Below are positions 1 to 24,679 of a DNA stretch of 24,695 nucleotides, piece after piece; within the stretch, counting starts at the first letter, position 1; every line of letters starts with the position of its first letter. The stretch comes from a virus. The notes beneath the pieces were generated by a model, which did no database searches, had not been told where the DNA came from, and saw nothing but the letters and a program-made list of their open reading frames with translations. The stretch is taken from the IMG/VR virus record IMGVR_UViG_3300005338_000030, positions 1-24,695 of that record; one strand, written 5' to 3'. The position numbers and the translations under genes are program-made.

Positions 1-2667
1 ACCTTCAAGATTGCTGTAGGGGAGATTCTCGATGTAGGGGATGCCGGAGAACTGACCCCACGTTCCGGTGGGGTTAATAATCATTACGGATGAACTCTCC
101 GGAATCGTCGGCTGATTCCAGTGGACGAACTGGCACGGGGACCCATCGAAAGTCGAACCACCGAATCCGCCGTTCCCAGGAATGCCTGGTTGCCAGGAGT
201 CCCCTTCGAAGACGTACTGCCCGGTCTGGAACCCGTACATCACGATGGGTGGAGCGTTGGAGGAGTTGGCCTGGATGATGTTGGACCGGCCTACCACCGA
301 GCCGTTGACCGAGAGGATGCCGATGATGGCTTGTTCGCGGAGGAACGCCCAGCCCTCAGCATCGTTGTCTGTGTCATCCAGGACGTAGAGCGACTGCTTG
401 CTAGTTCCCGGACCGAGGAGCGTGCAGATGAAGTTGGTGAAGTTCGGTTGGTTGTGGAGCTGATGGATGCGTCCACCGAACGGAACTTGAATCCCGATGG
501 GAGCACCGAGGACAAAGTTCCGGTAGGAATCTCCGAACCAGAGAATACCGATGTCCGAGGGAGCGAAGACGTTGCAATCCTGGATGGTGGAGTAGAACCC
601 GTTTCCATCGCTTCCCTGGAAGCCAGCACGGCAGCCGAAGGAAGCGGAGACTCGGGAGATGAGGCTCTGTGCGTTGGCCCAGCTGGAGAAGTTGGTGCAG
701 GCAGTCTGCGCGTGGATGTGCAGGTCCTGGAGCATCATGTAACTGAGCCCCGTGCCGCCCTTCATCCGGATGTAATGTGGAACGAGGTGCAACCCGTCGG
801 TCGGGTTGGAGGACGGACCGTTGTTGGCTCCCGGGACCTGGACCGCTGCTTGCGCCACGATGAAGGGAAGGTATTTGTACCCCGCCGGGTCCAGAGGGAA
901 GTTCGTCTGGTCCCAGTTGCAGAGCCATACTGTATTGGCACTGGCGGTGTACGGGCCAGGCGTCGGAGTGAAGCTTCCCGTTCCGGTGTGGAACGGGGTC
1001 TTCGCCATTTCGATGCAGCCCAACGAGGAGGCTGGGGGCATGTTCACCCCAACGTCATCCTGCTGAATCTCCATTCCCGGGTTGCCGATGGTGGCGCTCT
1101 CCCAAGGCTGGCGGAAGACCGGACCGGTGGTCCCGACGTGCATTTGGTGGACGCCGTTGATGTACAGCCAGACGTTGGTTCCGTCGTAGTTCAGCTCGAC
1201 GTTGGCAGTGACCCCAACCGTGAGGTTCCCGCTGTCCAGGACGGTTTGCTGACCCGTCGTGAGGTCCAGCGTTCCGGTGGTCCAGTCTGGACAGGTCGTG
1301 AAGTACGCCCGGAGGTGAGCGTTCACTCCATCGGAGACCAGCTTGAAACAGAGAGCGCGGTCGATGAAGGAGCTTGAATAGACACCGGTCGGACCTTCCG
1401 TCCCGAAAAGATGACGCTCACCGGAGGTGGGGATGGAAGGGAGCTTGTACTCGAACCGGACTCCAATCGCAGTCGTGTCAATCATCATCCCCAGGAACCA
1501 AGTCCAGGGGTATGAGTCATGAAGGGGCAACGTCAACATCGTAGGACTGAGGTGCAGCGAATGGGTCGAGGTCCCGTTCAGCGGTGGGTCGAAAGTCACG
1601 ACCGAGGCGACGTAGGCAGCCAGGTCGGCTGAGGCCACTTCGCCCGTGGCGTAGAACACCGGCCCAGAGAACTGCTCCACGTTCGCCGGAGTCGCGGACG
1701 TTGATGCTCCAGCGACGACGTTCGTGGCGTCGTTCCCATCCCCGTAGATGATGGTGTACCAGGGAGTGAGCAACGGCTTGCTGGTGTACCACCATCCGGT
1801 GGGAATATAGATGGCTGCGCCGGTCCTCCCGAAGTTCTGGTAGTTGAACAGCGGGGGAGGGAAGACCACCGTCTGGATGTACTGCACCGCCCGGTACCAG
1901 GCGACGGACATATCCTTGGTCGGGTCGTTGGGGACCAGGGTGTCATCGAACTGGCGGATGTCGAAAACGCTGACCACCGCTCCGTTGACGAAGATTTTCT
2001 GTCCAGCGTACTTCTGCTTGATGGTGGAGACCGAGCCACCGTGGGTGTCGTCGGCAGCCGTGGCGTGGAGGACATTACCGTCCACCCCATCCAAGAGCAG
2101 CCCTTCAGCGGTGGGCGTGTTGCTGAACGGTCCGAGGACGACGCCCCCGCCTCCGCCACCTCCGGCAAGCCAGGCAAGGTCAGTGGGGGAGGTGGCTCCC
2201 AGGAAGCGACCAGCGATGTATGGCTTGGGGAGAACATCCGCCCACTGCATCCCGCTCTCGTCTCCCTTGACCTGGAGGAACTTGAGCGCGTTCCCGATGA
2301 CGGACGGAATCGTAATCAGCGAGATGAGGTAGGCCAGCTCCTGCATGACGCAGACTGCCCGGTCGAAGTCGTACTCCACCGTCTGGGCCGGGAAGGGACC
2401 CTGAGGGGAGTAGACATCGGGCTGGGTGCGCGGGGTGTCGCGCTCCACCCGGACGATGGCCCCGTTGGCCGGGGCAACCAGGAAGCTGATGACCCCGCCC
2501 GGGATGGACTGGTCGTTGGAATTAAATACGGTGGTGAACGCGGTGGTCGGAACGTCGTCCACCTTCACCACCAACCAGTCTACCGACCGGCAGTAGAAGG
2601 TGAAGGAGAAGTCCGTCCCCCCTCCAGCCACGTACTGGTTGAAGACGTTGAGAGTCGAAACACTCAT
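1..2667 (-). CDS. Tail fibre/tailspike protein, T7 gp17-type N-terminus (partial, runs off left edge)
   Basis: This reading frame is open from an ATG at 2667 to the window edge (889 codons, no stop), so the C-terminus is missing. Residues 5-115 resemble the T7 tail-fibre N-terminal domain that anchors fibres to the tail: a short beta-rich domain with VKVDD, VRVERDTPRTQP and VEYDFDRAVCVMQE segments. A run of seven glycines (about 169-175) leads into a fibre module with ADDTHGGSV (about 205-213). Residues 395-545 look like a LamG/concanavalin-like fold (NYDGTNVWLYINGVHQ at 493-508). Residues 640-820 are compatible with a beta-helix tailspike, but no catalytic residues can be assigned. The start overlaps the stop of the upstream ejection-protein gene (ATGA), suggesting translational coupling. 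The likely role is host receptor binding, perhaps with polysaccharide degradation. The anchor assignment is fairly sure; enzyme activity is not shown. Confidence 0.85.
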   Translation of the reverse strand, partial: MSVSTLNVFNQYVAGGGTDFSFTFYCRSVDWLVVKVDDVPTTAFTTVFNSNDQSIPGGVISFLVAPANGAIVRVERDTPRTQPDVYSPQGPFPAQTVEYDFDRAVCVMQELAYLISLITIPSVIGNALKFLQVKGDESGMQWADVLPKPYIAGRFLGATSPTDLAWLAGGGGGGGVVLGPFSNTPTAEGLLLDGVDGNVLHATAADDTHGGSVSTIKQKYAGQKIFVNGAVVSVFDIRQFDDTLVPNDPTKDMSVAWYRAVQYIQTVVFPPPLFNYQNFGRTGAAIYIPTGWWYTSKPLLTPWYTIIYGDGNDATNVVAGASTSATPANVEQFSGPVFYATGEVASADLAAYVASVVTFDPPLNGTSTHSLHLSPTMLTLPLHDSYPWTWFLGMMIDTTAIGVRFEYKLPSIPTSGERHLFGTEGPTGVYSSSFIDRALCFKLVSDGVNAHLRAYFTTCPDWTTGTLDLTTGQQTVLDSGNLTVGVTANVELNYDGTNVWLYINGVHQMHVGTTGPVFRQPWESATIGNPGMEIQQDDVGVNMPPASSLGCIEMAKTPFHTGTGSFTPTPGPYTASANTVWLCNWDQTNFPLDPAGYKYLPFIVAQAAVQVPGANNGPSSNPTDGLHLVPHYIRMKGGTGLSYMMLQDLHIHAQTACTNFSSWANAQSLISRVSASFGCRAGFQGSDGNGFYSTIQDCNVFAPSDIGILWFGDSYRNFVLGAPIGIQVPFGGRIHQLHNQPNFTNFICTLLGPGTSKQSLYVLDDTDNDAEGWAFLREQAIIGILSVNGSVVGRSNIIQANSSNAPPIVMYGFQTGQYVFEGDSWQPGIPGNGGFGGSTFDGSPCQFVHWNQPTIPESSSVMIINPTGTWGQFSGIPYIENLPYSNLEG

Positions 2668-5600
2668 TTCTTCTTGCCCTTCCCGTAGGCCGAGTATGGC
2701 TGGCCAGGAGCAATCAGCTGCTTAAAGAATTCCGCGTCGTTCAACTTCAGCTCCCCCCGCTGGAGGCGCAGGTACATCTTGATTCCGCTGGACGGTCCCT
2801 GGAACGGAACCTGTCCCACACCGGGGACACCTACCTCTGCGCCTAGATTCCCTACAGTGTAGAACAATTTCTCCATCTCGTCACCATGGAGCTTGTCCTT
2901 GCTGTTCCGGGTCCAGTAGGTCCCGGCGAGGTCTCCGAAGCGCTCCAAGTCATCCACGATGGGAAGGCTCAGCGGGCGAGCACCGAAGAACTCCAGGTGG
3001 TCCTTCAGCGGAGTCTTATCCATGAAGTGCTTCGCCGCATCGAGACCGAGGTCCCCTACTCCCGGGAGGGAACGAAGCACGGTCTGAGCAACTGCGGTGC
3101 CCCCATTGGCCACCGCCCACTTGTAATCATCTTTGTCATCCCTGCCCTGAGTTGCCGCAGGGAACAGTCCGCGACCAAGGGCCGCCGTGGCGAGTGCTGG
3201 GGCAGCGACAACATACAGAAAATGAGCAACCATCTTGGGGTAGTCGCCACGTTTGAATTCGTACCCCATGTTGTGAAGATGGTTGTAGATGTTGTTCGAG
3301 TACCCGGCAGCCAGGTTGAGGAAGCTCCACACCCACTTGTTGTGACGGAAGAACTGGGGGAGGTCCTTGAAGCTGGAGCTGGAGTCGGCGGTCCGGACCA
3401 CCTGGTCCGCGAGGTGCTTCACCCGTGCTTCGTACTCCGGGGTGCCAGGCATGATGGGCTTCTGCCCAGCGGCGACGGCTTCCTCAGCTTCCTTGCCGAG
3501 AATTTGATATGCCTTCTGCTCGCCCGCGAGGTAGTTCACCATCGAGGACTGCTGAGTGAACCACTTCATCCAGAAGAACGCAGTTTGCTTGACGAACTTC
3601 TGGACATGCGCCTCTGAGCGACGAAGGAACTCCGGAGCAGTCTCCTCGAACACCTGGTCCAGCGCAGCCTGAGGCATCGCTGCGTCTTGCATGTGGAGCG
3701 CGGTCTTCACCTCACCGGAAGTCTCGAACACCCGCTTTCGCTCTGCCGGGTCGAACGCCTTGCCGAAGCCGATGGCGAAGTTCTTCCACCCCACGTCGTT
3801 GATGCCGGCGATGGCACCCGTGAGCTGGGGGATTGCAGTTGCAAACTTCCACCCGAAAAGTTTCAGGTTGGTTCCGTACTTCAAATACCCCATGAACTTG
3901 CTGACGCCGTTCAGTCCAGGGGGGACTTCCGAGCCTGCGCCTTTCGCCAGGTCCCGAAGCCAAGCGTCGAACTGCTGGTACACCGGCATGCTGTACTGCT
4001 CGATGATGGCGGTGGCAGTCTTGGGGTTCTCCAGCGCCACCTTCGCCTGGGTCAGCGAGTCATACATCTCGGTGTAGCGGATGACGTCTGCCAGGTGCCG
4101 AGCCACGTTCTGGAGGTCGTAATCCAGGGGGAGCGCGAGACCGCTCTCGGTGCGAGCCAGGGTGAAGGACTTGGGAAGCCCCGCCCTCTTCTGCTCCGGA
4201 GAGAACAGAGAGTTCACATCATCGGCAGGACGGGCAACCCGGGCCCGCTCGTAGTCGTAGACCGTGGGGACGTAACCACCCTTGAGAGTCTCCGTGCTCC
4301 CATCGGGCATAATAAATACTTCGGGCCTGGCATCCACCGGGTCAATCTTCTGCCCGGTCTCCTTGTACTTGGTCTCCCGGACCGCGTCCCAGTGGGAGCC
4401 GGTCAGCCCCACCAGGTCGTTGACGGTGTGGATGTCCTTGGCAGTGATGGTGCCTCGGCTGATGAGGTCCTGAAACCACTGCTTGTACTGCGCGTGGGTC
4501 ATCCCCTCGCCCCGGGCCATGACCTCCCAGTTGCGAGCGTCCCCGAAGTAGGCGAGCTGCATCAGCGTTTCGCGAAGGGAATACTCGCGACCCGCCCCGT
4601 GGTCCGCCATGGGGTTGTGGACCCGGGACTCCAGCCGTCCGTTCTCGGTGGCTGAGCCTCGGAGGATTTTCTCCAGCGCCGTCCGGGCCCGCTCTCCCTT
4701 TGCCTCCACCCGGTTCAGCGCTTCCTGAATCGGCTGGTTGATGACCCGGTCCACGTCCGAGCCGAACACCTTGAACATGAACTCCGGGCGAATCAGGGAA
4801 GCCATCGCTCCCTTGATTTTCTTGATGGTGCCCGGACGAACATCAGACTTGGAGAGGTCCTCCACCTTCTCCCAGGGAGCGGACTTCAAGATTTTATCGG
4901 AAAGGTAGTCGTCCATCTCCTCCCGAGCCACCCGCTTGCCGTTCCAGATGACCGCGTCCCGCTGCTTCGCCAGGTACTCCGCCGTCTCGATGGCAGCGAA
5001 GGCTTCCTTGAGCATCGGCAGTTCCATCCGCTGCCAAGGCTGCAGACCCCCGGGTTCGGCGAATTGATTATCGAGGGGGAAGGACTCCCCGCGCTCATGA
5101 ATTTTCTGGAGCGCCGCCCGGAGGGAAGCGTCGGAGGCGTCCTTCAGCCCAGCCGCTTGATTGATGTCCAGACCCGGCGGAGCTTCCTTGAAGCCCAGCC
5201 CAGTAAGCAGATGGTCAATGACCGCCAGGTACTCCGGGCCTGCACGTCCAATACGAGTACGTCGAGAATCGTTGTTCGCGAGGTCCTTGAGGTCCGAGAC
5301 AGCATCCGTAACTTCCGTCTTTGCTTCGGTGAGAGCAAGGAAGAGCTTCCTGTTCAAGAGAGCCAGGCGGGCCTGGTTGGATGCCTCGTCGAAGTTTCCT
5401 TTCCCGACTGCCCGCTTCATCTCCATCGTCGCCTTAGCTTCCGCCCGGAAGGCGACCGCTGGACTCAGCTCCTTCGCCTTCACGTCGCGCATGTAGTCGC
5501 GCACCGTGGCGTCCAGGGCAGAGTCGATGAAGCCGTCGCTCAGCTTCACCCCCAGGCGCTTGGCGAGAATTTTATACCTGTACTTCTGCAGTCGTTCGAA

Positions 5601-8600
5601 CGCCTTGCCCTGAGCGAGCAAGAGCCCCTGAGAGCGGGCCCAGTCCCGGGGGTCGTTGAACTCCGGGTGCCGCTCCTTGAAGATTTCCTGGGTGCGGTCC
5701 TCGATTTGAGTCTTCACGTCCTCGGCAGAGCGCATCCGCTCCAGCATCTCTCGACCGGTCCCCCCGGTTCCGAGGATGGCCGCCAGTTCCTCCGGGGCGT
5801 ACCCGATGAGCTTGTCGCTCTTGCTCTCCACTAGCCCTTCGAACTCCTTGGGGTCGAAGCCCTCTATCCGGACATCGTCATAATTCAACTTCATGTGGTC
5901 GATGCCGTACTCTCGACCGTCCAGGGTGTTGCCGGTACGCAGCCACTCCCGGAGATTGTTGATGTCGTTCATCGTGACTTCGGTAATTGCCCGAGCACGA
6001 TTGTCCACCAGCTCCGCTCGCGCAGTCCGGGCCTCGGCGGAGCCAGCTTTTGGAATTTTGGTATAGAGCTCCCGGCGAGCCTCATTCTCCGCCTCGCGGT
6101 AGCCGAGCATCTCCTCCTTGGTCTGGAGAACACCTTCGAAGGCATCGGCCATGTCGTAGCCAAGCACCTTGGAGACGTGGTCCGTCTCCTCCTGCATGGC
6201 GAACATCGGCTCCATCATCTTCCGGATTTCCGGGTCGAACTGCACGCCTTCCCGGGCCAGCCCTTCCATCGAGCCCTTCATCCACCGGGAGAGCGTGCTG
6301 AAGGTGTCGATGAGCCCTTCGTTGGGAGCGACGCCTTCCTGGAAATACTTCTCCATCCCGTCAACGAACTTCTCTGCCTGAGCAGAGGTGAGGTCGGTCC
6401 CTGGCTCATGGCCCAGCCACTTATCGATGGCCGCCATCCGCTCGGGGACCAGCTCGCCCCAACGGTAAGAGATGTAGTGCGCCATCTCATGGAGCAGGGT
6501 GGACTTGTCCGCCCACCCCGACTGGGTGATGAGCTTGTACTTCCCCAGCTCCTTGATGGTCCCGGCGATTCTCTTCTCGTTCTGCCCCTGCTTCCGAGCC
6601 TCGACTCCTTCTCCAGTGTGGAAGGTCTTGACCGCTTCCGGGTCCATGGCTACCGCTCGTTCGGCAGCCAGAGGCCCAGTATTGATTACTCCTCGGTCGG
6701 CTCCGGTGATTTCGCCGGGGCGGATGAAGACGGGGACGACGTCTTTTCCTTCCTTGGTAGCTTTGGCAAGAGCGGCTTCCGCTCGGAGGAAAGCTCGTCC
6801 TTCAGGAAGGTCGCCTCCCGGTCGCTCCTTCCCCTCAACTCGGAAAGCAAGGAACGTTTCACCAAGAGTTTTTTCCGCCGCTTCACGGAGTTTTTCGAGC
6901 GGCGCCTTGACGGGCCCCTGTGCTTCTTCCTTCTTGGCTTTCTCGGTCCCGGAGCCTTTCCGGATTTCTCTTCCCCGCGCCTCCGATACGATTGACTTGA
7001 GCTTCTTTTCGAACGCAAGCGCGGCATTGTCACGGCTCCCCGCCACCTCCACCGGACTCTTTGCGTAGTCCTCGAACACTGTGGGTTCGACACCCAGTGA
7101 CTTTGCTCGCTCCAGCGACGCGGTTCGCATCGACTGGGCGTACAGATTCGCAACTGTCTTGGCTTCCGAAGGCAGCTTCCCGCTAGCGGAAAACTTCGCC
7201 TCCAGGTCCTTCGCTATTTTCTTGGTGTCCTCTTCAACCGGGTCCTTCTCACTGGGCTCCCGCTGGAACTTGGACAGCTCCTTCTGCTCATCGAGAGTGA
7301 AGGTGTCCCCGAACCGCTCGTGCCCTACAAGGGACTCGGCACCAGGCTTGGTCTTGACCTCAGCCGCATAGTCGGCGGTAGGTAGGATTGCTTCCTGTCC
7401 GGTCTGCTCCGCCTTCTGGAGGCTGCGCTCGACGACAGGAGATGACACAGCACCGGGCACTGACTGCCGCAGTTCCGTCGGTGGGACTGCAACTGTTGCA
7501 TGAGTGTTTGGGTCGCCGTGGGCTTCCTGGACTGCATTCACCACTTCCCTGAGGCGTTCCGGATTTTGTTGGGCCGCTTCACCAGCGGATAACTCCCAGA
7601 GAATTGGAACGCCCTTGGTCCGGAAGTCGGTGGCGAGTACTCGCTTTTGTATAGCGAGCTTACCCTTCCCGAGCAGCGCGGAGCCACCGCCACCCGCTAC
7701 ACCCAGGAAGAAGCCGGGTAGAAGTGTACCCTCCAGCGAGGTGGCCTCCTTGTAGCCTTCCACCAGAGCGCTGTCTTCCCAGGGGGTGTCGGAGGTCTCC
7801 GCATACGGAACTTCCTTACCCAGGGCAGCCAGCACGTTCTGGGTGCCCATCTCTGCAATCTTGTTCAGGAGACTGAAGGCAGCATTGATGCGTGCGCCCT
7901 TGACTCCAGCGTCGGCAATCTTCAGGAAGTCGGAACGGAACTCAGGCTTCTTGAGTGCCCACCCTGCCAACCGCTCCAGGACCACCTGTCCCGGCACTCC
8001 CTCTCCAGCGAACTTCTGGAAGATGGGACCGAGGGCCTTGCCCATGTACTTGAAGCCCAGCTCGGCACCGAGCGTATTAATTACCCCAACCGAGATGGCG
8101 TAGCCTCGCGCGACTTGGGGGTCGATGGGGTCGCCGTTCACCGTCTTCATGGTCAGCGCCTTGTCGAACGCTGCCCCGGTAGCGTCGTAACCCATCCGGG
8201 CCGACATCGCGGTGTGGAAGGCGAGGCCAGCGCTAGGGACTGCAGCTTCCGGACCGGCTGCAGCAGTGAGCGCCGCAGTTCCTGCAGCCGCTACAGTCCC
8301 TGTCGCCAGTTGCCCTGCTAGAGCACCTCCCATCTCCACGGTGTTCTTGACCACCTCCGGGAGCTTCGACTTCTCGACGGTCTCTTCGTACTTCTTCTGG
8401 TACTTGTCGTATTCAAGCTGGGCGTCGGGGTCATCCCACTTGGTGATTCCAAGAGCCTGGTCCGCCCGGATGCTGGTCATCCGACTCCGGTACCAGGACC
8501 CCTTCATGATGTCCCAGAGCGAATTGATTACGTCGTCCTGCTGCTTGATAGCTGCTTCGGTGTTCTCCTTGACCTGGCGCTGTTCGTTGAAGTCACCCTT

Positions 8601-8963
8601 GAACGCCTCCTCCATGGAAGCCAGGGTGTCCAGCGTCTTGTTGTCCGAGGCGAAAGCTGCAGCGGTCCCCGGGGAGTCCGCCAGCTTCCGCGCGGTGACC
8701 GGTGCCCGCTTGATGAACGTCAGGGGGTTCGGCGGGTCTGCTGCCCCGTCCTCCGCGTTCAACCGAGCGGCGGGGGTGGAGTTCTTCGGCAACGCCGAGT
8801 CGAGTGCCCGCTTGGCAGCCAGAGGGTTCCGCCCACGCTCACGGACGGTGGACAGAGCCGTGCCCAGCCGCGACTGCAGCGGGTCAGGCTCCTGGACGTC
8901 GATACCCGTCGGAAGCGGGGGCGCCTCCGTGGGGTCGTCTACGTCCTCTTCATCGGCTGGCAA
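2664..8963 (-). CDS. Giant internal virion/DNA-ejection protein (T7 gp16 position) with HExxH metallopeptidase-like domain
   Basis: At 2099 aa this is far longer than T7 gp16 (about 1318 aa). By position, last of three ejection genes and just before the fibre gene, it should be an internal core protein ejected into the host envelope. The N-terminus is acidic and proline-rich (1-80), followed by an Ala/Gly-rich hydrophobic stretch at about 211-250. HEMAH lies at 825-829 in the context STLLHEMAHYISYRWGEL, with E864 (QAEKFVDGMEKY) a plausible third zinc ligand. This resembles the zincin-like domain of phage polyvalent proteins. Long helical regions follow, and a likely membrane segment occupies about 1911-1934. 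I see no lytic transglycosylase motif of the T7 gp16 type. The start is TTG: AAGGAG lies 7 bases upstream and no in-frame ATG occurs before residue 117. The gene overlaps the previous one by 14 bases. The positional role is firm; peptidase activity is inferred. Confidence 0.85.
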   Translation of the reverse strand: MPADEEDVDDPTEAPPLPTGIDVQEPDPLQSRLGTALSTVRERGRNPLAAKRALDSALPKNSTPAARLNAEDGAADPPNPLTFIKRAPVTARKLADSPGTAAAFASDNKTLDTLASMEEAFKGDFNEQRQVKENTEAAIKQQDDVINSLWDIMKGSWYRSRMTSIRADQALGITKWDDPDAQLEYDKYQKKYEETVEKSKLPEVVKNTVEMGGALAGQLATGTVAAAGTAALTAAAGPEAAVPSAGLAFHTAMSARMGYDATGAAFDKALTMKTVNGDPIDPQVARGYAISVGVINTLGAELGFKYMGKALGPIFQKFAGEGVPGQVVLERLAGWALKKPEFRSDFLKIADAGVKGARINAAFSLLNKIAEMGTQNVLAALGKEVPYAETSDTPWEDSALVEGYKEATSLEGTLLPGFFLGVAGGGGSALLGKGKLAIQKRVLATDFRTKGVPILWELSAGEAAQQNPERLREVVNAVQEAHGDPNTHATVAVPPTELRQSVPGAVSSPVVERSLQKAEQTGQEAILPTADYAAEVKTKPGAESLVGHERFGDTFTLDEQKELSKFQREPSEKDPVEEDTKKIAKDLEAKFSASGKLPSEAKTVANLYAQSMRTASLERAKSLGVEPTVFEDYAKSPVEVAGSRDNAALAFEKKLKSIVSEARGREIRKGSGTEKAKKEEAQGPVKAPLEKLREAAEKTLGETFLAFRVEGKERPGGDLPEGRAFLRAEAALAKATKEGKDVVPVFIRPGEITGADRGVINTGPLAAERAVAMDPEAVKTFHTGEGVEARKQGQNEKRIAGTIKELGKYKLITQSGWADKSTLLHEMAHYISYRWGELVPERMAAIDKWLGHEPGTDLTSAQAEKFVDGMEKYFQEGVAPNEGLIDTFSTLSRWMKGSMEGLAREGVQFDPEIRKMMEPMFAMQEETDHVSKVLGYDMADAFEGVLQTKEEMLGYREAENEARRELYTKIPKAGSAEARTARAELVDNRARAITEVTMNDINNLREWLRTGNTLDGREYGIDHMKLNYDDVRIEGFDPKEFEGLVESKSDKLIGYAPEELAAILGTGGTGREMLERMRSAEDVKTQIEDRTQEIFKERHPEFNDPRDWARSQGLLLAQGKAFERLQKYRYKILAKRLGVKLSDGFIDSALDATVRDYMRDVKAKELSPAVAFRAEAKATMEMKRAVGKGNFDEASNQARLALLNRKLFLALTEAKTEVTDAVSDLKDLANNDSRRTRIGRAGPEYLAVIDHLLTGLGFKEAPPGLDINQAAGLKDASDASLRAALQKIHERGESFPLDNQFAEPGGLQPWQRMELPMLKEAFAAIETAEYLAKQRDAVIWNGKRVAREEMDDYLSDKILKSAPWEKVEDLSKSDVRPGTIKKIKGAMASLIRPEFMFKVFGSDVDRVINQPIQEALNRVEAKGERARTALEKILRGSATENGRLESRVHNPMADHGAGREYSLRETLMQLAYFGDARNWEVMARGEGMTHAQYKQWFQDLISRGTITAKDIHTVNDLVGLTGSHWDAVRETKYKETGQKIDPVDARPEVFIMPDGSTETLKGGYVPTVYDYERARVARPADDVNSLFSPEQKRAGLPKSFTLARTESGLALPLDYDLQNVARHLADVIRYTEMYDSLTQAKVALENPKTATAIIEQYSMPVYQQFDAWLRDLAKGAGSEVPPGLNGVSKFMGYLKYGTNLKLFGWKFATAIPQLTGAIAGINDVGWKNFAIGFGKAFDPAERKRVFETSGEVKTALHMQDAAMPQAALDQVFEETAPEFLRRSEAHVQKFVKQTAFFWMKWFTQQSSMVNYLAGEQKAYQILGKEAEEAVAAGQKPIMPGTPEYEARVKHLADQVVRTADSSSSFKDLPQFFRHNKWVWSFLNLAAGYSNNIYNHLHNMGYEFKRGDYPKMVAHFLYVVAAPALATAALGRGLFPAATQGRDDKDDYKWAVANGGTAVAQTVLRSLPGVGDLGLDAAKHFMDKTPLKDHLEFFGARPLSLPIVDDLERFGDLAGTYWTRNSKDKLHGDEMEKLFYTVGNLGAEVGVPGVGQVPFQGPSSGIKMYLRLQRGELKLNDAEFFKQLIAPGQPYSAYGKGKKK

Positions 8964-10926
8964 ACGGGTTCTCCTTGAGCTTGTTCTGCTTCAGCCAGAC
9001 GGCTTGCAATAGCTCGGTGTCGGTCGGCTTCCGGTTGCGAAACTTCTGGGGGTACGTTGTCCGGAGCCAGCCCGCCAGCTCATCCCGATGGAGGTCCACG
9101 AAGGCCGAGGTCTCAATCTTCTCCTTGGCCGTGGGGACCTGTTCTGAATTCTTGGTCGCCTTCCAGGCGTCATCGAATACATCCACCACCGGCTTCAGGT
9201 GGTCGTCCCAGATGGCGTCCAGGTTGCCGGCAGTGAGTTGAGGGTACTTGGTCGCGTACTGACTCCGCACCCGCTGAATCTGGGGAATCCAGGACGGGGG
9301 AACATCGGAGAGTGGAGTGTGGCTCTCGGGCACCGTGTCCGAACTCAGCCCGCCCCAGGTGGAGACCGTCTTGCTGGTCTGCCGATTCGCTGCCCACTCG
9401 GTGGCGAACTCTCGAATCTCAGTCGACTTCAGCTTCCCACCATGCTGCTTCTCGTAGCTCCGGAGGTCCTGGAGAAAGGCGTTCTTGATGCTTGCCTTGA
9501 CCATGAGCGAATTAACGTTCTTGTCCGTGGGCTTGTACCCCAGGGTGTCGGTGACGTAGGCAGCCGCCTCTTTCACGTCCGCGCGAACGGGTTCAATCGG
9601 CTCCCCGTCTCGGTGAGCTTGCTGAATCTCCTTCCACTTCTTCACTTCGGCGATTGGGATGTGGAATTTCGTCGCGAAATCATTAATTGGAATGTCATCC
9701 GGATCCATGATTTCGCCAGTCCAAGGATTCTTGACTGACGGCGCTTCTCCACGCGCGGCTTCATCGAAAACATCCCGGAGAGTAGATACCGCCAGATTGG
9801 ACTCATCTTTTTCCGTCTGACTTTTGACCGGTCGGTTGGCGCTCTCCAGCATCCCGATGAGCTGCTTGCGGAGGCCAGGGTCGACCCCTGGCAACGGTTG
9901 AGTCACCAACCGCTTCGCAGTATTCATATCCCCGCGCGTGTAGGCATCGAGGAATTGAGATTCGTAGCTCCAGTTCCGTGCCTGCTGCTCCTTCTTCGCC
10001 TGCCGTTCATCCACGTTCTGCAGGACACGGAGGTTGCTGGACATCTCCTTGACCAGCCCCCTCCGCTCCTGCTCAGAAAGGTTTGTCACGTCAACGTTCT
10101 GCACTTCTCCCTTACCGTTGGTGTAGGCGAACTTGGGCTCATTCGACTTCAGCCCCTCGATGATGTTCGACATCCCCACCAGGTCCTGCTCGGTCTGCGG
10201 CTTGTTCACCTGGTAGAACGACTGCGCTCGGTCGTACTTCTGGAGCAGCTCCTCCCGCTTCGGCTCAGGGAGGTCCATCAGCTTGACGATGCCCTTGGCC
10301 GCATCGAAGTTCCCGCTGTTGGCGAGCTTGATTGCGGTGTTGTCGAGCTTGGCGTTCTTCCAGTCCGTCATCTCCTTCTGCGCCACCGCCACATGCTTCT
10401 GGTACTCGACTGCAACCTGCTTGGAGGCTTCACGAACGAAAGAGTCCTTCCACCCGGGAAGGGAGATTCTGTCACCCGCTTCCTTGACCGCCAGGTCCAT
10501 CTTCTTCTTGTACCGCTCCGGGTTGATGGCCCAGGCGGGAATGTCATTCCTCTCAACCTGGGTCATCTCCCCGGTTTCCGGTTCACCCTGCTGCCTGTAT
10601 AAACCTCCGACGCGCTGCTTCACGTCATCGGGAACACCTTCGGGGTAGAGGTCCTCCACCTCCTTGGTGGAGTACATGACCTTCTGCGCATTCTCCCGAG
10701 TGGCCTTGGCGTCCGCTTCAGCCAAGGTAGCCAGAGCTTCCGCGTGCTGAACCTGAGACTGTGACCGGGCCATCTCTAGGCCCCAGCTGCCCACGGTCGA
10801 CGCGACCTGGCCTCCGGCCTGCCAGGCACGCTCCTGGTTGTGGCCGAGCTGGATGAGCGCGTCCCGCGCCTCCTCGATGCCCCGAACCGACTGGGTCGGT
10901 CCGGTCTGGAACTCAGGTAGTTTCAC
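8950..10926 (-). CDS. Internal virion/ejection protein, T7 gp15-like
   Basis: This 658-aa soluble, charged, mainly helical protein lies between the gp14-like and gp16-like genes, exactly where T7 encodes gp15 (747 aa), which forms the periplasmic part of the ejection tunnel. Repeated helical segments such as NSGNFDAAKGIVKLMDLPEP (residues about 205-224) recall the tetratricopeptide-like helices of this family. There is no signal peptide, membrane segment or catalytic motif that I can see. The start is GTG at 10926, forming a GTGA overlap with the stop of the gp14-like gene, so translation is probably coupled. Sequence identity to T7 gp15 is not obvious by eye; the assignment rests on gene order, size and helical composition. 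Confidence 0.75.
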   Translation of the reverse strand: MKLPEFQTGPTQSVRGIEEARDALIQLGHNQERAWQAGGQVASTVGSWGLEMARSQSQVQHAEALATLAEADAKATRENAQKVMYSTKEVEDLYPEGVPDDVKQRVGGLYRQQGEPETGEMTQVERNDIPAWAINPERYKKKMDLAVKEAGDRISLPGWKDSFVREASKQVAVEYQKHVAVAQKEMTDWKNAKLDNTAIKLANSGNFDAAKGIVKLMDLPEPKREELLQKYDRAQSFYQVNKPQTEQDLVGMSNIIEGLKSNEPKFAYTNGKGEVQNVDVTNLSEQERRGLVKEMSSNLRVLQNVDERQAKKEQQARNWSYESQFLDAYTRGDMNTAKRLVTQPLPGVDPGLRKQLIGMLESANRPVKSQTEKDESNLAVSTLRDVFDEAARGEAPSVKNPWTGEIMDPDDIPINDFATKFHIPIAEVKKWKEIQQAHRDGEPIEPVRADVKEAAAYVTDTLGYKPTDKNVNSLMVKASIKNAFLQDLRSYEKQHGGKLKSTEIREFATEWAANRQTSKTVSTWGGLSSDTVPESHTPLSDVPPSWIPQIQRVRSQYATKYPQLTAGNLDAIWDDHLKPVVDVFDDAWKATKNSEQVPTAKEKIETSAFVDLHRDELAGWLRTTYPQKFRNRKPTDTELLQAVWLKQNKLKENPFASR

Positions 10927-11402
10927 GGTTTCCCAAAGGCAATGTTGCCCGCGTTTCCGAGACCACCGAGGAACCCGCTCACTCCGCTGAGCGCGTCACC
11001 CCAGAGACCCGCGTCCGCCGACTGCCGTTGCACGTCAGCCGCCTTGCGCTGGAACTCTGCGCTCATCAGACCGGAGCGGAGCATCCACGAAGACTCCTTC
11101 CCCAGCTCGCTGGAGAGGAAGTCCACGTACTTGTTCATCGACCCGGTGGTGTGACCCATCCCGTCGCCGGAAGCAAACCCAGAGGCGCCGACCGCTGCCC
11201 GAGCACCACCAATCTTCTGACCCGATTCCAGGTCAAAGCGACGGACCTGTTCCCGGGTCTGTAGCTCGGTCTCCTGTGCTTGCTCATCCGTCAGCTGAGC
11301 ACCAGCGTACATGGCATCCTTCTTGGCGCTCCCGCCGAAGATGCCACCGAACAGGGACCCGAGAGCCCCTGCCGCTGCTATCGCTCCGAAAACTACAGGC
11401 AT
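10923..11402 (-). CDS. Internal virion protein, T7 gp14-like
   Basis: This 159-aa protein has a hydrophobic glycine/alanine N-terminus (residues 3-25, AIAAAGALGSLFGGIFGG), a polar helical middle rich in Gln, Glu and Arg (35-65), and a Gly-rich C-terminus (GVSGFLGGLGNAG). That layout is typical of gp14-type ejection proteins, which insert into the outer membrane and start the channel; T7 gp14 is 196 aa. The start is the ATG at 11402. AGG lies 8 bases upstream, and the spacer is exactly TAATTAAT, a copy of the dispersed AT-rich motif. The gene lies 9 bases after the tail tubular B stop. Position before the gp15- and gp16-like genes supports the call. Confidence 0.8.
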   Translation of the reverse strand: MPVVFGAIAAAGALGSLFGGIFGGSAKKDAMYAGAQLTDEQAQETELQTREQVRRFDLESGQKIGGARAAVGASGFASGDGMGHTTGSMNKYVDFLSSELGKESSWMLRSGLMSAEFQRKAADVQRQSADAGLWGDALSGVSGFLGGLGNAGNIAFGKP

Positions 11403-24188: not shown

Positions 24189-24396
24189 CCTCCTGGCTGC
24201 CTTGCTGCACGTCATTCCCGTGCCTGCACCGGACGTAAATGCTCTCCCGCCCGTCACCATCGAGGATGCCCGCGAGTATTGCGAGGCTTACGGTGGCCAG
24301 TGGAACGAATACAGCAACGAGGATGACACCGCTCGATGGTACGAGTGTGACGAGCCCACGGGAGAGTCGAGCGATGACCCCGAAGACGACCAATAG
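24178..24396 (+). CDS. Hypothetical small, possibly exported protein, 72 aa
   Basis: The ATG at 24178 overlaps the previous gene by 11 bases and has GAGG about 9 bases upstream; an in-frame ATG at 24160 lacks that support. The N-terminus (MRASLLAALLHVIPVPAP) could be a signal peptide: one Arg, a hydrophobic core and small residues. The rest is acidic with two Cys (C35 in REYCEAYGGQW, C57 in RWYECDEP) that could form a disulfide outside the cytoplasm. The YC-x3-GG...C spacing faintly recalls DUF333-type proteins. The function is unknown; export is inferred. Confidence 0.5.
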   Translation: MRASLLAALLHVIPVPAPDVNALPPVTIEDAREYCEAYGGQWNEYSNEDDTARWYECDEPTGESSDDPEDDQ

Positions 24397-24679
24397 GCGC
24401 AGAGCGCGGCTGCGCGCTATCCGTCTCGGCTTGAAGCACCTACTCGGCGGCCGGTGCGCTCTGTGTGGCATCCGACGCTTTGCTTCACTCGAAGTCGACC
24501 ACGTGAACGGCTGCACGTGGGTGCAGAAAACCTACAACACCGAAACGCGCTGGTACCGATACCTCAGGGAATACCGCACGGGAGTGAAGCTCCGGCTCCT
24601 GTGCCGCAGCTGCAATGGCAGTGAGAATCAGTGGAAGCACGGCACCCGCGCCGAGCGGACCCTGCGCATCGTCGCGTAA
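24374..24679 (+). CDS. HNH endonuclease, 101 aa
   Basis: The basic N-terminus is followed by the HNH/zinc layout: C28-x2-C31, E40-V-D42-H43-V-N-G, and C77-x2-C80-N81. The two CxxC pairs form the structural zinc knuckle; D42/H43 are the catalytic start, with N81 in the place of the final His/Asn. I chose the ATG at 24374 (GGGAG about 9 bases upstream, 23-bp overlap with the previous gene); an in-frame ATG at 24239 would lie within the preceding gene. Small phage HNH proteins can nick DNA in packaging or act as free-standing homing enzymes. This copy is not beside the terminase, so its role is unclear. Family call strong. Confidence 0.88.
   Translation: MTPKTTNRRRARLRAIRLGLKHLLGGRCALCGIRRFASLEVDHVNGCTWVQKTYNTETRWYRYLREYRTGVKLRLLCRSCNGSENQWKHGTRAERTLRIVA

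Follow-up and report, generated by a model that had tools for sequence, protein, structure and literature searches.

A divergent, probable polyvalent protein in the gp16 position of a short-tailed phage carries a conserved zincin-type metallopeptidase motif

The 2099-residue protein encoded at 2664..8963 (minus strand) of the DNA analyzed here, a 24.7-kb virus record of 24,695 nucleotides that we call the window, is most probably a divergent addition to the already described class of polyvalent proteins (Iyer et al. 2017). In the middle of its chain lies a predicted metallopeptidase domain whose HExxH motif and downstream glutamate are retained across highly diverged relatives. What would a phage do with a peptidase in this position? 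We favor, at a probability of about one half, a role in metal-dependent processing of the protein's own chain or of its ejection partners, a reading that draws on sequence conservation and structural models. A very divergent member is thus added to the class, together with ~390 relatives recovered in one IMG/VR search, and since some members of this family are phages of laboratory strains, self-cutting of polyvalent proteins would be open to direct test.

The gene begins with a TTG codon and is placed among late virion genes, with tail tubular and internal virion genes on one side and a tail fiber gene on the other. The order reads tail tubular A/B, gp14-like, gp15-like, the 2099-residue gene and tail fiber, and it bears out the T7 gp16-like gene position assigned in a preliminary description of this DNA. 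In the gp14 position, a 159-residue internal virion protein (10923..11402, minus strand) matches PHROG 418, "internal virion protein", with an E-value of 1.4e-5, and the gp15 position is occupied by a 658-residue ejection protein (8950..10926, minus strand) to which a profile of the relatives' upstream genes was matched. The tail fiber gene (1..2667, minus strand), with a weak T7-type fiber N-terminus, runs off the window; the remainder of its frame is found in a sister contig of 42.6 kb (L102) that is over 99.9% identical to the window across the shared DNA. The ends of this contig overlap by ~130 bases, so the map is close to a complete circle. Because of the gene order, the 2099-residue protein is probably an ejection protein of a short-tailed phage, injected ahead of the DNA; in the literature searched, virion proteomics of a closely related phage did not turn up. 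Two further frames lie outside the virion genes described here: a weak HNH/endonuclease VII match in the window (24239-24679, plus strand) and a SNF2/helicase-like frame, recognized by eye, on the phage's early side (L102:2-1039, plus strand).

How well is the putative active site conserved? The HEMAH motif occupies residues 825-829 (H825, E826 and H829; 6477..6491, minus strand), and shuffled versions of the protein contain on average 0.036 HExxH motifs. E864, the predicted third metal ligand, is encoded at 6372..6374 on the minus strand. Relatives of the protein, none of them reaching 60% identity, were detected by tblastn in 37 phage records, which include BPP-1 and other Rauchvirus-like podoviruses, Xanthomonas phages CP2 and SAC, Pseudomonas phage AF, Cobetia phage Carin1, Caulobacter phage Jess A, and Vibrio and cyanobacterial phages. 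The similarity spans from about residue 806 to near residue 1980, and H825, E826, H829, E864 and E871 are invariant in the window protein and 16 distinct phage relatives (17/17). Two sets of IMG/VR relatives extend this comparison. The first was collected with a search pattern covering E871-P880 only, without the HExxH motif. In the resulting alignment of 96 sequences, mostly from this search but also including the window protein and phage records, HExxH and E864 are kept without exception; 68 of the sequences are non-redundant at below 60% identity, the median pairwise identity is 35%, and the spacing between H829 and E864 ranges from 35 to 131 residues. The second set, 391 relatives, was fetched via the C-terminal region alone (residues 1520-1900, with the conserved GGY.P motif), and HExxH was scored in those 70 members whose upstream sequence extended for 1000 residues or more. 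It is kept in 69. The exception, L141 (IMGVR_UViG_2524023164_000002), has lost the HExxH helix and retains E864 and the downstream module; this reflects either a loss that occurred naturally or an error in the assembly. Inserts between HExxH and the glutamate helix reach ~470 residues in some members of this set, and nine of them (L130, L161, L129, L122, L134, L143, L165, L166 and L189, with inserts of ~225 to 470 residues) may have a domain nested inside the peptidase. HEMAH and E864, which the preliminary description had picked out from a single sequence, are by this measure of conservation not there by chance, and their retention among sequences that share a median of 35% pairwise identity points to a working metal site.

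The predicted structure agrees with this reading. Two AlphaFold models were built on alignments of IMG/VR relatives, one of residues 1-1010 and one of residues 690-945. We place the zincin-like metallopeptidase domain at residues 690-935 (6159..6896, minus strand), with a well-modeled core at approximately residues 800-935, over which block pLDDT values in the smaller model run from ~61 to 93. In the model, a beta-hairpin at residues 801-814 is followed by the HExxH helix (820-838) and then by helix 860-876, on which E864 is placed. The structure prediction called for in the preliminary description delivered the elements in order, an indirect sign that H825, H829 and E864 would come together. 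A Foldseek search of the PDB with the domain model gave no match with an E-value below 0.4, that is, nothing significant. Structural alignment with VIA-align returned leading rows that are mostly zincin metallopeptidases, among them anthrax lethal factor, C. difficile PPEP-1/Zmp1, ERAP2, PprI, CapP, SprT/Spartan and BlaR1, at low scores (Z 4.8 to 2.3). Z-scores this low can by themselves reflect a common arrangement of elements, and the weight of the comparison lies in the consistency of the matched family. Searching solved structures by sequence yielded chance-level matches alone, including a weak one to SprT/Spartan. In BFVD, the larger model matches other phage proteins of its class; its PDB matches were set aside as meaningless, given how poorly that model is resolved. 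Taking motif, conservation and predicted fold together, we infer that H825, H829 and E864 would hold a zinc-type metal while E826 would activate water.

What surrounds the peptidase is better seen in the relatives than in the window protein itself, for which Pfam, run on the whole chain and on seven pieces, reported nothing above its cut-offs. LPD22 was found in 32 of 38 relatives and, where positions could be placed, lies at approximately residues 41-140, with LPD23 or PBECR between it and the peptidase. Other domains vary from one relative to the next: ART-PolyVal, PBECR1, PBECR5, GNAT, GGDEF, LPD3, LPD23 and, once, SLT. A profile of the relatives' LPD22 region matches the N-terminus of the window protein with an E-value of 4e-4 (the best of 200 shuffles reached 0.32) and marks an LPD22-like segment at approximately residues 28-125, with approximate boundaries (8589..8882, minus strand). 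A variable payload region follows at about residues 640-790 (6594..7046, minus strand), defined by low alignment occupancy and containing no recognized domain; it has no clear phage relative beyond near-identical contigs, and gives a weak local match in one relative (L027). Downstream of the peptidase, a C-terminal module of ~1100 residues (approximately 940-1985; 3009..6146, minus strand) is constant and carries the GGY.P motif. It falls within the match of the protein to PHROG 9880, which extends over residues 792-1985 with an E-value of 2.3e-94. From the domain positions in the relatives, the LPD22-like N-terminus and the variability of residues 640-790, we therefore describe a four-part layout: an LPD22-like N-terminus, a changeable payload, a constant peptidase and a constant C-terminal module. 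One record among the relatives, that of Limnohabitans phage DC33 (PQ492659.1), is assigned to Inoviridae, yet its 39-kb genome contains this podovirus ejection module.

In polyvalent proteins the MPTase is the commonest domain, with HExxH in one helix and a glutamate in the next, and 12 MPTase clades have been published (PMC5512222). The window protein shares with them its character as a large, probably multidomain late-virion protein, its HExxH and glutamate on the following helix, and the variable inserts between the two, and its relatives carry LPD22, other LPD domains, ART-PolyVal and PBECR. It differs in being too divergent for any Pfam model and in the unrecognized payload region. Among characterized phages, Bbp10 of Bordetella phage BPP-1 and its counterparts (Rauchvirus, CP2, AF and Carin1) have the same gene position and catalytic residues, and their homology to the window protein begins with the peptidase domain and extends almost to the C-terminus; they are, however, only ~21-24% identical to the window protein, and in BPP-1 PBECR1 precedes the peptidase while an SLT domain is found in the upstream product, Bbp11. 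Coliphage N4 offers a more distant parallel. Its vRNAP, gp50, has an HExxH motif in the C1 domain and a large helical C-terminal part after it (PMC12633501). Like the window protein, it is the biggest member of an ejection trio whose genes are arranged in this order, but the window protein has no RNA polymerase module. An hhalign comparison of the window peptidase part with N4 aligned the two HExxH motifs, with single-pair E-values of 0.0024 and 0.0093 and a probability of only 4-12%. Profile comparison did not detect homology between the C-terminal module and N4 C2, nor was homology detected between the gp15-position protein and the N4 66 kDa protein.

We rank self- or partner processing first among the possible roles, ahead of host targeting and of a mainly structural role. 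Judging from its gene position, the 2099-residue protein would be packaged in the head and would leave the virion at infection with the gp14- and gp15-position proteins. Its peptidase would cut its own chain or these partners, either while the head is being assembled or once the host has been entered, and the cut would detach the payload at the N-terminus from the C-terminal module, which is conserved. Evidence for processing comes from the invariance of HExxH and the glutamate over very divergent relatives despite variable spacing, from the modeled hairpin, HExxH helix and E864 helix, and from the zincins that dominate the leading VIA-align rows; the low Z-scores and the Foldseek result count against it. 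Processing is favored because release of a payload best fits a constant peptidase standing behind a changeable one. A more specific version, which we put forward tentatively and hold less probable than processing in general, is that of a cargo-release device: the constant injected peptidase, shared by podoviruses whose hosts are unrelated and whose N-terminal payloads are exchangeable, would cut itself after ejection, and the enzyme released into the host cytoplasm would differ from phage to phage. To our knowledge, no phage peptidase of the polyvalent class has been shown to act. Iyer et al. proposed self-processing, post-injection processing or host targeting for the MPTase (PMC5512222), and precedents point both ways: DdrB of phage P1, in which these authors found a C-terminal MPTase, is processed before packaging, whereas the N4 virion RNA polymerase, another MPTase-bearing protein, enters the virion without being processed (PMC5512222).

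Could the zincin domain instead be an injected effector that cleaves an envelope, regulatory or defense protein of the host? Effector-like payloads (ART, PBECR nucleases, GGDEF and GNAT) stand beside the peptidase in relatives, and host targeting is among the options of Iyer et al. (PMC5512222). Yet the peptidase is constant across phages of hosts as different as Caulobacter, Vibrio, Xanthomonas, Cobetia and Nostoc while the payload varies, and one would expect a target that is specific to the host to differ between hosts; we regard this role as improbable. We consider it equally improbable that a metal-binding or zincin-folded domain serves in packaging or assembly and cuts proteins rarely or not at all. 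N4 speaks for such a role: its gp50 is packaged uncleaved and the MPTase-bearing region is required for encapsidation (PMC5512222), and the gene order of this phage is alike, as are its two smaller partners in size (16.5 kDa and 66 kDa, beside vRNAP). L141, too, keeps E864 and the rest of the protein without HExxH. Against this, retention of HExxH, including its general-base glutamate, in 69 of 70 independently found relatives exceeds what a purely structural role would require.

Where, then, is the transglycosylase? T7 gp16, which the window protein resembles by gene position and expected ejection role, has a transglycosylase at its N-terminus (PMC8954989), in contrast to the window protein, which has no detected transglycosylase and an HExxH domain in mid-chain instead. 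That the protein lacks a transglycosylase motif, as first noted by eye, was confirmed: neither Pfam, applied as above, nor a family-specific SLT profile run over all frames of the window found an SLT or lysozyme domain in it, which leaves room for a strongly diverged lysozyme in the poorly modeled parts. SLT (PF01464) occurs in the gene directly upstream, in the gp15 position, in six of seven named relatives and, among all IMG/VR and phage relatives whose upstream frame is complete, in 25 of 72. Frames with SLT are longer (median 739 residues, versus 595 without it), and in the window the upstream-protein profile matches the gp15-position protein in two halves with no SLT between them, as in two thirds of relatives. 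A single relative, L077, has both domains in one 2214-residue frame, where SLT covers residues 36-112 and the HExxH of the peptidase is found near residue 977, an arrangement like that of T7 gp16. Transglycosylase activity is known to move between gp15- and gp16-type proteins, as in K1E gp35 (PMC8954989). The preliminary description is thus supported in proposing a zincin-type metallopeptidase domain as in polyvalent proteins, but the domain does not stand "in place of" a transglycosylase, because it occurs with or without SLT. It is accordingly very improbable that the peptidase has taken over from the transglycosylase the task of getting through peptidoglycan: SLT is indeed missing from both the 2099-residue protein and its gp15-position neighbor, but relatives with SLT in the upstream protein have the peptidase just as well, it shares a chain with SLT in L077, and no similarity of the domain to any peptidoglycan peptidase family was found.

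These results also bear on annotation. Homologs in four public records (L007, L013, L018 and L010) are labeled "lysis protein", "lysin" or "crystallin beta/gamma motif", which are probably propagated errors; the conserved enzyme-like part of these proteins is of the peptidase type, and any transglycosylase is in most cases encoded by the neighboring gene. The sole SLT detected in the sister contig belongs to a 151-residue protein encoded just downstream of the tail fiber, a probable endolysin, and the adjoining small protein with a hydrophobic stretch looks like a holin. Both lie in a minus-strand stretch (L102:1982-3752) that contains the gene for the probable SLT endolysin at 3297-3752, the holin-like gene, and a gene for a collagen-like protein with Gly-X-Y repeats at 1982-2878.
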